This document shows, in pieces, positions 36,052-38,587 of a stretch of 58,507 nt of DNA. This DNA is from Singulisphaera sp. GP187 (GTDB lineage Bacteria; Planctomycetota; Planctomycetia; Gemmatales; Gemmataceae): the NCBI GenBank assembly GCA_945905925.1, contig CAMDQN010000025.1:1-58507 (forward strand), in the 5' to 3' direction. How positions within the stretch are numbered: the first letter of the stretch is position 1; each line of letters starts with the position of its first letter. Below the pieces are notes generated by a model. The model saw nothing but the letters and a program-made list of their open reading frames with translations, did no database searches and had not been told where the DNA came from. Both the position numbers and the translations under genes were made by a program.

Positions 36052-36954
36052 ATGACGGTGAAACTCGCGCACTTCAGTGACATCCACCTGACCGTCCGGC
36101 CGCTCGGCTGGCGCGCGCGGGACGTGTTCAACAAGCGCACGTCGGGCTGGGTGAACCTGAACGCGCTCGGTCGCGGCTTGCGCTTCAAGCACGCGAACGA
36201 CGTGACCGCCGCTCTGCGGAAAGAGTTCGCTTCACGGGACTTTGACCAACTGGTGTTCTCCGGCGATGCGACCGCGCTCGGCTTCCCCTCCGAGCTGAAG
36301 GAAGCCGCGACGCGGCTCGGTGTCGGCGACGCGACGCTTCCGCCGGGGATCGCGGTCCCGGGCAACCACGACCTCTACGTCCGGCACTCGGCTCGCGACC
36401 GGTTTTTTGAAGAGGCGTTTGCGTCCTGGCAGCACGGGCAGCGCATCGGCACCGACGCGTACCCGTTCGCGCGGAAGGTCGGGCACGTGTGGCTGATTGC
36501 CCTGAACTCCGCGAAGCCGACCTTCTTGTTTTGGGACGCAACCGGTCGGGTCGGGGACGCGCAGTTGCAGCGGTTGCGCGCGTTGTGCGCCACGCTCGAC
36601 GCCGGTCCGCGGATCGTGGTGAGTCATTACCCCTTACTAAAGGAAGGGCATCAGGTCGAACCGCGCTGGCACCGACTTCACGACTGGCGCGCGGCCCGCG
36701 ACACCGTGGCCGAGTGCGGCGTGAACCTGTGGTTGCACGGCCACCGTCACCACTGGTACGTTCTCCCACCTGCTGCGAACCTGCCGTTCCCGACGATCTG
36801 CACCGGCAGTTCGACGCAAACGAATCGCTGGGGGTATCACGAGTACCGCATCGACGGCGGGCATCTGAAGGGCGTGCGACGGGTATACGATCTGGCGACA
36901 GGCGCGTTCATCGATGCAGAACAATTCGATTTCGATCTTCAGCGTCAAGTTTAG
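36052..36954 (+). CDS. Metallophosphoesterase (calcineurin-like)
   Basis: The start at 36052 (MTVKLAHFSDIHLTV) directly provides the first metal motif, D-x-H (SDIH). GDATAL and PGNHDLYV supply GD and GNHD; VVSHYPL and LWLHGHRHHWYVLP complete the set of metal-binding His residues. The 300-residue protein therefore has all five family motifs of a binuclear phosphoesterase. The family covers nucleotide, lipid and protein phosphatases, and the substrate is unclear. There is no signal peptide. A GC-rich palindrome follows about 160 bases after the stop. Confidence 0.9.
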   Translation: MTVKLAHFSDIHLTVRPLGWRARDVFNKRTSGWVNLNALGRGLRFKHANDVTAALRKEFASRDFDQLVFSGDATALGFPSELKEAATRLGVGDATLPPGIAVPGNHDLYVRHSARDRFFEEAFASWQHGQRIGTDAYPFARKVGHVWLIALNSAKPTFLFWDATGRVGDAQLQRLRALCATLDAGPRIVVSHYPLLKEGHQVEPRWHRLHDWRAARDTVAECGVNLWLHGHRHHWYVLPPAANLPFPTICTGSSTQTNRWGYHEYRIDGGHLKGVRRVYDLATGAFIDAEQFDFDLQRQV

Positions 36955-37112
36955 CGTCGGACCCGGAGGGGCCATGCTCTTTGCCTTTCTCTCTGTTGGG
37001 GCTACAACGCTCTCAACTGATTCGGTCCGGTTTAGCTCGTCGCTCTGCGACAGGACGATGTTGCGTCGTCCGAGTAAATCGCCAAGCACCCCACGTGGGG
37101 AAGGCTGTTCCA

Positions 37113-37214
37113 GCACCGCTTTCGCTGCGCATGCCCCCCTTGCGGCAGCGGTCTGGAGCAACCCCACCGGTCGTGGTTCCGCTGCCGCAAGGGGGGCATG
37201 CGCAGCGGCGGTGC
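37113..37214. repeat. Long GC-rich inverted repeat
   Basis: The left arm GCACCGCTTTCGCTGCGCAT and continuing GCCCCCCTTGCGGCAGCGG pair with a right arm ending GCATGCGCAGCGGCGGTGC, leaving a loop of about 27 bases. It stands alone between two forward genes and may terminate transcription of the phosphoesterase. Confidence 0.75.
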
Positions 37215-37267
37215 CGTGAGCCTTCCGCACCACAGGATGAGAAGTAGACCGGCCGGATCGGTTCCAC

Positions 37268-37298
37268 GAAAGCCCGCGAACGTCGTTCGCGGGCTTTC
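37268..37298. terminator. Perfect 14-bp hairpin upstream of the selenoprotein
   Basis: GAAAGCCCGCGAAC and GTTCGCGGGCTTTC are perfectly complementary with the loop GTC. It ends 24 bases before the selenoprotein start. A T-tract is weak (ATTTCCC), so it may be a terminator for upstream transcription or part of a leader. Confidence 0.6.
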
Positions 37299-37322
37299 CG
37301 ATTTCCCCCGTGGGAGGCTCCC

Positions 37323-37676
37323 ATGCCGAAGCGCATCGACTGGCTATACGACCGGCGCGGCTGAACGACGTGCCAGAAAGCCCAGGGGTTCCTTGGGCAC
37401 GAGTCCGTGACCGTCGTGGAAACCGTGAACGCGACCAAAGTTCGCTACGACGCGGACCAGTCGCTCAAACTCCTCGAAGAAATCGACACGCTCATCGCCG
37501 CGAAGGGCAAGAAGGTCGAAACGTTCGACCTGAAGAACGACCGGCCGGACGATGCGACGCTGCTCGCGCGTATGATGGGTCCGACCGGCAACCTGCGCGC
37601 GCCGACGGCACGCGTCGGGCGCACGCTTGTCGTCGGGTTCAACGAAGACGTTTATGCACGTGTGTTCACGAGCTGA
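37323..37676 (+). CDS. ArsC-like selenoprotein (in-frame TGA read as Sec)
   Basis: The ATG at 37323 has a GGGAGG five bases upstream. Codons 1-13 read MPKRIDWLYDRRG, codon 14 is TGA (37362-37364), and the same frame continues TTCQKAQGFLGHESVTVVE to the stop TGA at 37674-37676. The result is 117 residues with U-x-x-C at the position of the catalytic Cys in ArsC/Spx-type thioredoxin-fold proteins. The remainder (YDADQSLKLLEEIDTLIAAK, PTARVGRTLVVGFNEDV) is consistent with a compact thioredoxin-like fold. A hairpin 16 bases downstream of the TGA fits a bacterial SECIS. The gene is easily missed because callers stop at TGA and restart at the GTG at 37407. I recall ArsC-like selenoprotein families from surveys; the substrate is unknown. 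A hydrolase gene follows. Confidence 0.85.
37380..37398 (+). promoter_or_regulatory. SECIS-like hairpin after the UGA codon
   Basis: GCCCAGGG and CCTTGGGC pair over 8 base pairs (one G-U) around the loop GTT. It begins 16 bases after the UGA codon and exposes a G next to U in the apex, as bacterial SECIS elements bound by SelB do. The UGA-to-loop distance of about 23 bases is in the known range. No folding software was run. Confidence 0.65.
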
Positions 37677-37762
37677 ATCGCACATCGCGAGAAACTCTCC
37701 AACCTCTCATGCGGTACAATTGCCACGAATTGGCTTCCCTACTCAACGACGAGGCGGACGCG

Positions 37763-38587
37763 ATGAACGTGTTGTGCGTGCTGGCGGCGCTGGGAATCGG
37801 CGCACCGGCGGACGATAAAGTCGCGATGCACGAACGACACGCGGACATCGCGTACCGCACCGACAAGGACGCGGACAAGGAACGGCACCTACTCGACGTG
37901 TACACGCCGAAGGGCAAGAAGGACTTCCCGACCGTGCTGTTCGTTCACGGCGGGAGCTGGAAGAGCGGCAACAAGAACCTCTACGCGCTGCTCGGTCAGG
38001 CGCTCGCGGACGACGGCATCGGGTGCGTGATCTGCAACTACCGGCTCTCGCCTGCGGTTCAGCACCCCGGACACATCGAAGATGTCGCGAAAGCGTTCGC
38101 GTGGACTGCGGACAACATCGCGAAGTACGGCGGGAAGAAGGACCAACTCTTCCTGTGCGGTCACTCCGCGGGCGGGCACCTCGTCTCGCTGCTCGTCACC
38201 GACCCGCAGTACCTGAAGGCGGAGAAGTGTTCGCCCGCTGATGTAAAGGGCGTCGCGTCGTTGAGCGGCGTGTATCAGATCGTCGCGGGTCAGAAAGTAT
38301 TCGACGCACCGTTCGGGAAGGACGAGAAAGTGTGCAAACTCGCGTCGCCGATGACGCACGTGGCCGGGAAGCACCCGCCGTTCTTCCTCGCGTACGCGGA
38401 CAACGACTTCCCGCAACTCGATAAGATGGCCGAGAACATGCACGCGGCATTGAAGAAGGCGGAAAGTACGACCGAACTGATCAAGTGTAAGGACCGCAAC
38501 CACTACACCATCATCATCCAGTTTGTGAGCAACACCGACCCGCTCAACAAGTCGTTCCGTGAGTTCGTGCAGAAGAACAGCAAGTAA
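37763..38587 (+). CDS. Alpha/beta hydrolase (esterase/lipase type)
   Basis: The start at 37763 gives 274 residues beginning MNVLCVLAALGIGAPADDKV, which may be a weak signal sequence. HGGSW (62-66) forms the oxyanion hole and GHSAGGH holds the nucleophile S135; the acidic and His members lie in AYADNDFPQ and RNHYTI. The upstream region of the long frame (from 37310) overlaps the selenoprotein and is not translated. This HGG-type esterase resembles planctomycete hydrolases acting on acyl esters. It ends 69 bases before a perfect terminator hairpin. Confidence 0.88.
   Translation: MNVLCVLAALGIGAPADDKVAMHERHADIAYRTDKDADKERHLLDVYTPKGKKDFPTVLFVHGGSWKSGNKNLYALLGQALADDGIGCVICNYRLSPAVQHPGHIEDVAKAFAWTADNIAKYGGKKDQLFLCGHSAGGHLVSLLVTDPQYLKAEKCSPADVKGVASLSGVYQIVAGQKVFDAPFGKDEKVCKLASPMTHVAGKHPPFFLAYADNDFPQLDKMAENMHAALKKAESTTELIKCKDRNHYTIIIQFVSNTDPLNKSFREFVQKNSK

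Follow-up and report, generated by a model that had tools for sequence, protein, structure and literature searches.

The locus considered here raises the question of whether an in-frame TGA, met 13 codons into a reading frame, is decoded as selenocysteine (Sec) and, if it is, what kind of protein is produced. The window (the whole stretch analysed, 58,507 nucleotides of contig CAMDQN010000025.1, assembly GCA_945905925.1, from Singulisphaera sp. GP187) belongs to a genome of 6.47 Mb that is 96.6% complete and contains one match to the protein. When the TGA was read as U, translation from ATG 37323 gave MPKRIDWLYDRRG-U-TTCQKAQGFLG..., 117 residues in all, of which 103 codons lie downstream of the internal TGA. 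The start codon with its GGGAGG at 5-base spacing and the long open frame behind the TGA, both proposed in the initial annotation, were confirmed by reading the sequence base by base (Table 1). A mechanical ORF caller applied to this frame returned an 89-aa ORF starting at GTG 37407, exactly the fragment that a normal annotation had been expected to report, and a naive annotation would accordingly keep only the last 89 residues of the gene. The gene had for this reason been called hidden, which is correct for a naive caller but may be too strong a word, since NCBI maintains a dedicated model, NF041106, for the family.

Table 1. Features of the putative selenoprotein gene (window coordinates).
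Feature	Position	Strand	Remarks
Shine-Dalgarno-like GGGAGG	37312..37317	+	5-nt spacer to ATG 37323; sequence read directly
Selenoprotein gene, ArsC family NF041106	37323..37676	+	117 residues, Sec at 14; stop TGA 37674-37676 included
In-frame TGA, codon 14	37362..37364	+	first position of U-x-x-C; Sec decoding inferred from orthologues
Codon 17, resolving Cys of U-x-x-C	37371..37373	+	Cys in 66/67 orthologues
SECIS hairpin, 8 bp with GTT apical loop	37380..37398	+	overlaps codons for residues 20-26

The read-through protein was compared with profile libraries and scored 143.9 bits against NCBIfam NF041106, 'ArsC family (seleno)protein' (cut-off 85; profile positions 1-107 of 107), and 28.1 bits against Pfam PF03960, ArsC (cut-off 24). 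Its match to NF041106 spans the whole profile and exceeds the cut-off by 59 bits; the UxxC motif is shared as well, and nothing essential is different. The selenoprotein family list of a 2026 review (PMC13188914) includes 'Arsenate reductase-like protein, NF041106, UxxC', and this review was the sole match to the accession in a full-text literature search. Related entries appear in other papers: COG1393 with UxxC is listed in PMC9312934, where UxxC relatives are filed under arsenate reductase; the Global Ocean Sampling selenoproteome (PMC2398784) names 'Arsenate reductase 2' (cd03032, UxxC), which shares an ArsC/Spx-type domain with UxxC and, being likened here by its description, could belong either to this subfamily or to another; ArsC-like selenoproteins were already described in 2006 (PMC1794560); an arsenate reductase with UxxS is given in PMC1088965; and selenoproteins are recorded from other planctomycetes in PMC4807772. 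The portions of the literature retrieved by the search held no experimental role for the NF041106 family. Judged by its sequence, the window gene is an additional member of a selenoprotein family already on record.

Decoding of UGA as Sec had been taken to imply that the organism has SelA, SelB, SelC and SelD, and all four were located. In profile searches of the window genome, selA (555.6 bits), selB (365.4 bits with its neighbours in frame) and selD (387 bits) scored over their cut-offs, and the best tRNA-Sec locus scored 69.5 bits against RF01852 and was identified by ARAGORN as tRNA-SeC, anticodon tca. The gathering score of RF01852 was passed by three loci; one of the other two was called tRNA-Ser and one received no call. 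Some SelD proteins carry Sec near the start; the SelD of this genome reads A-G-C-A-A-K there and so has Cys at that site. The same genome (G000) holds a second selenoprotein candidate at 42486-42704 of contig C18 (L147), an Rdx/SelW-family gene in which an in-frame TGA supplies the U of C-S-V-U.

Orthologues were collected from 99 genomes, the window's own included, and 69 of these contained a match to the family, 68 of them over the cut-off. Two loci were left out, one (G042) beginning at contig base 4 and covering profile positions 43-107 only, and the other (G053) lying near a contig end with no readable U/C-x-x-C, so that 67 remained. Codon 14 was TGA in 45 and Cys in 22 (18 TGC, 4 TGT), the motif being UxxC in 44, CxxC in 22 and UxxV in one, and the family alignment showed conservation of the protein before and after the TGA. 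The two expectations placed on homologues, Cys in the place of Sec and conservation of the downstream frame, were thus both borne out. A gene for selA or selB over the cut-off was found in 44 of the 45 TGA genomes, and both genes in 35; the sole exception (G018) is 65% complete and carries a selA fragment. Eight TGA genomes had no selB and three no selA over the cut-off, and while several of these are incomplete drafts, some are not (G009, 96%; G034, 95%; G056, 92%). Among the Cys genomes, 15 of 22 had both genes and 7 had neither, and among the 30 genomes without the family, 13 had selA or selB. The difference in sel genes between TGA and Cys genomes gave a Fisher p of 0.0012 with kinship ignored.

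A further scan of named genomes looked for exact peptide patterns taken from the window protein, an approach that favours close copies, and returned 17 loci. Two of these (L136 and L137) were other ArsC-type proteins and one (L138) was a partial match; the remaining 14 family loci (L122-L135) all had TGA at the site. Three of the 14 are apparently G015, G003 and G009 again, and the others are titled as Planctomycetota, Deltaproteobacteria or other Proteobacteria, Spirochaeta, and Thermoanaerobaculales MAGs. In two TGA forms the second Cys of U-x-x-C is replaced, giving UxxV in L091 (G059) and UxxA in L127; these are monothiol-type variants or errors, and with them a two-residue mechanism may not be universal in the family.

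The hairpin downstream of the TGA, GCCCAGGG-GTT-CCTTGGGC, has its arms at 37380-37387 and 37391-37398. The bSECIS description in PMC13188914 includes a loop of 3-9 nt whose first two positions contain a G, an upper stem of 4-16 bp, a distance of 16-37 nt between UGA and apical loop, and a minimum free energy (MFE) of at most -7.5 kcal/mol. The hairpin has a 3-nt loop reading GTT on 8 bp, 23 nt from TGA to loop (37365-37387) and an MFE of -14.2, or -16.8 kcal/mol for 51 nt. Folding of this region had been suggested as a check in the initial annotation (37365-37410), and the stability found for 37360-37410 was not above chance (z = -0.56; of 200 dinucleotide shuffles, 48 folded at least as well), and 18 of 200 synonymous-codon resamplings of the window sequence folded as well. 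Stability alone was consequently rejected as evidence, being within chance for a single sequence.

It is conservation and covariation across relatives that raise the predicted hairpin above chance. With the T of TGA numbered 0, 314 of 352 cells (89.2%) were paired in the 44 distinct TGA forms, against 27.8-62.5% when the partner was slid by 1-3 positions; in the 22 Cys forms 37.5% of cells were paired, against 23.9-46.6% when slid. The apical loop was GTT in 43 of the 44 distinct TGA forms. Pair 20-34 was T-A in 20, C-G in 13 and G-C in 7 TGA forms, and double (compensatory) changes amounted to 34, 20 of them at pair 20-34 and 9 at pair 25-29, compared with a mean of 10.7 and a maximum of 19 in 1000 shuffles, although such shuffle tests are inflated by related sequences, an effect that the slid controls and the contrast with Cys forms offset only in part. 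Three inner pairs had no double changes, two being paired in 44/44 and one in 43/44 forms, and the outermost pair, 18-36, was weak (formed in 25/44). The mean z against synonymous-codon resampling was -1.44 for TGA forms (35/45 under -1) and -0.06 for Cys forms (3/22). Among the more distant TGA loci L125-L135, 10 of 11 formed a hairpin at about the same place, though in some of these the stem is spelled quite differently or the loop is broader, and L126 folded differently. The eight paired bases with a GTT apex, which had been regarded as a plausible SECIS, thus agree with the published description and are further supported by covariation.

These observations bear directly on the less elaborate view that the gene is broken, the TGA being a true stop, through nonsense mutation or sequencing error, so that the peptide would end after 13 residues and the rest of the gene would be dead or re-initiated. 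The 89-aa ORF of the mechanical caller and the chance-level folding of the single sequence would fit such a pseudogene. The same codon is nevertheless TGA in two thirds of the readable orthologues and Cys in all the rest, the protein is conserved either side of it, the hairpin accompanies TGA and has mostly disappeared where Cys stands, and the full sel machinery is present in the genome, so that a pseudogene is highly improbable. A changed code with TGA as Trp was also considered and rejected, because the codon aligns with Cys and TGA also ends the same gene. The gene is, with little doubt, a genuine NF041106 selenoprotein gene of the ArsC/Spx fold in which UGA would be decoded as Sec at codon 14.

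A gene tree of the family was made without the motif and hairpin residues. It required 14 Sec/Cys changes (13-15 in bootstraps), at least 6 of them forced by starred branches; the tree rests on few columns, its deep forks are weak, with 25 of 64 inner branches open, the bootstrap did not converge, and the direction of change is not readable from it. The Sec label was clustered on the tree, as few changes being needed in 2 of 500 shuffles. One Cys form (G050, TGT) retains the GTT loop and 6 of 8 hairpin pairs, counted by eye, and looks like a recent Sec-to-Cys change. Frequent exchange of Sec and Cys in close relatives provides matched natural pairs for studying what Sec gains over Cys.

For the analysis of fold and active site, an alignment (A1) was built from the window protein, 32 of the 66 other readable loci and 6 of the 14 named-genome family loci, with L136 and L137 (YffB/ArsC-type) as controls. 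The AlphaFold2 model obtained from A1 had a pLDDT of 92.5. The best Foldseek matches were Spx chains (E 1.9e-4, TM about 0.52, rmsd 5.9-7.4); VIA-align gave an ArsC-related protein (Z 9.1), reduced Spx (8.7) and YffB (8.5), the program itself warning that top Z values of 7-8 often arise by chance; and a profile search of solved structures gave YffB 1rw1 as best (4.9e-17). The predicted fold is Spx/YffB/ArsC-like. The expectation that U-x-x-C falls at the catalytic site of ArsC/Spx-type proteins held in the profile alignment with Spx chain 3l78, where UxxC lies at the place of its CxxC. Arg11, Sec/Cys14, Pro94 and Gly105 were invariant in the 39 family members of A1, and Cys17 was present in 38. 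The YffB-type proteins 1rw1 and 2kok, in spite of the profile match to 1rw1, have C-x-x-M and Lys-Arg-Pro where the window protein has U-x-x-C and Arg-Ala-Pro.

The protein had been described as ArsC-like, which is right for family and fold and should not be extended to arsenate reductase. An arsenate reductase in which Sec improves catalysis would agree with the PF03960 score and with the filing of UxxC relatives under that name in PMC13188914, PMC9312934 and PMC2398784. Of the 67 orthologues, however, 64 have Ala and 3 have Ser just before the conserved Pro94, whereas both controls have Arg. Arg94 of E. coli ArsC occupies this place. With an E limit of 1, TIGR00014 (arsC) was not among the matches listed for the window protein, in a search whose HMMER filters drop most weak matches, and matched 2 of 41 A1 members at 0.001 in a table silent on which two; no arsenic-related Pfam family was matched by the seven neighbouring window proteins scanned. 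Arsenate reduction by this protein is accordingly improbable. An Spx/MgsR-like redox-sensing regulator binding the alpha subunit of RNA polymerase comes slightly closer, and is still unlikely. All 41 A1 members match TIGR01617 at E up to 0.001, and the fold and the position of UxxC are shared with Spx/MgsR (1z3e, 3gfk, 6ghb, 3l78), but the window protein, at 29.7 bits, is far under the TIGR01617 cut-off of 75.05 and has Arg-Ala-Pro against the Arg-Arg-Pro of 3l78. Most likely, we infer, it is a U-x-x-C thiol/selenol oxidoreductase and not an arsenate reductase. On this reading, SelB bound to the hairpin would deliver Sec-tRNA(Sec) to UGA to give a single-domain redoxin of 117 residues; the Sec14 selenolate would attack an oxidised substrate (disulfide, sulfenate or persulfide), Cys17 would resolve the selenenyl-sulfide, and a thioredoxin-type donor would recycle the redoxin.

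Gene neighbourhoods were compared over 68 loci with probes drawn from the same loci; representatives of moeB-rhodanese, fabF and JAB were named by NCBIfam and Pfam, and the labels fabD, acpP and plsX are our own reading from sequence. The window gene lies downstream of genes for a short-chain dehydrogenase and a phosphoesterase and upstream of genes for an alpha/beta hydrolase and a sulfatase. On the same strand upstream, fabF was found in 14/68 loci (14 genera, two families), moeB-rhodanese in 10/68 (the rhodanese part only in G030) and both in 6/68. The gap from the stop of fabF or moeB-rhodanese to the family gene was 2-45 nt in 8 loci and 75 to 2218 nt in the other rows of the gap table, from which the G041 row was left out as no stop was met before the family gene's start in the frame walked. 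This linkage in some relatives is a first handle on function and the best lead. One could accordingly regard the protein as a dedicated redox partner of the linked pathways, either fatty-acid synthesis (FabF, ACP) or sulfur transfer (MoeB-rhodanese persulfide), a tentative proposal that is favoured over either named function above and is itself rather unlikely. The short gaps and the confirmed identities of representatives speak for it; against it, 54/68 loci are without fabF and 58/68 without moeB-rhodanese in the stretch covered, some stretches being short, a phosphoesterase adjoins the gene instead in 12 of 17 loci of the window's genus, usually with a dehydrogenase, and a shared ancestral gene order accounts for the linkage equally well. 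One such order is suggested by the locus in G023 (L058), which carries both neighbourhoods at once: fabD-acpP-fabF, then the family gene (Cys), then the phosphoesterase and short-chain dehydrogenase known from the window's genus. A still more speculative scheme, to which we give rather little credence, places an Spx/ArsC-fold selenoredoxin directly behind a plsX-fabD-acpP-fabF(-moeB-rhodanese) cluster in the ancestor of this planctomycete order, as a redox or persulfide partner of acyl- or sulfur-carrier chemistry, with repeated swaps of Sec and Cys, some of them inside a single genus. In G030 (L118) the Cys form is preceded by a row consisting of a JAB/desampylase-like gene, then acpP and fabF, and a solitary rhodanese domain.

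A scan of 36900-37800 found no sigma-70 promoter. A perfect hairpin of 15+15 nt with a 1-nt centre is located at 37268-37298, just 5' of the ribosome-binding site and without a T run, and could be a terminator or attenuator. Farther upstream, a perfect inverted repeat of 29 nt (37123-37151/37179-37207) lies inside a dispersed element of about 140 nt (window 37085-37240); stretches of at least 130 bases of this element recur, at 67-81% identity, at 11 further sites in the genome, and it is a REP- or MITE-like family.
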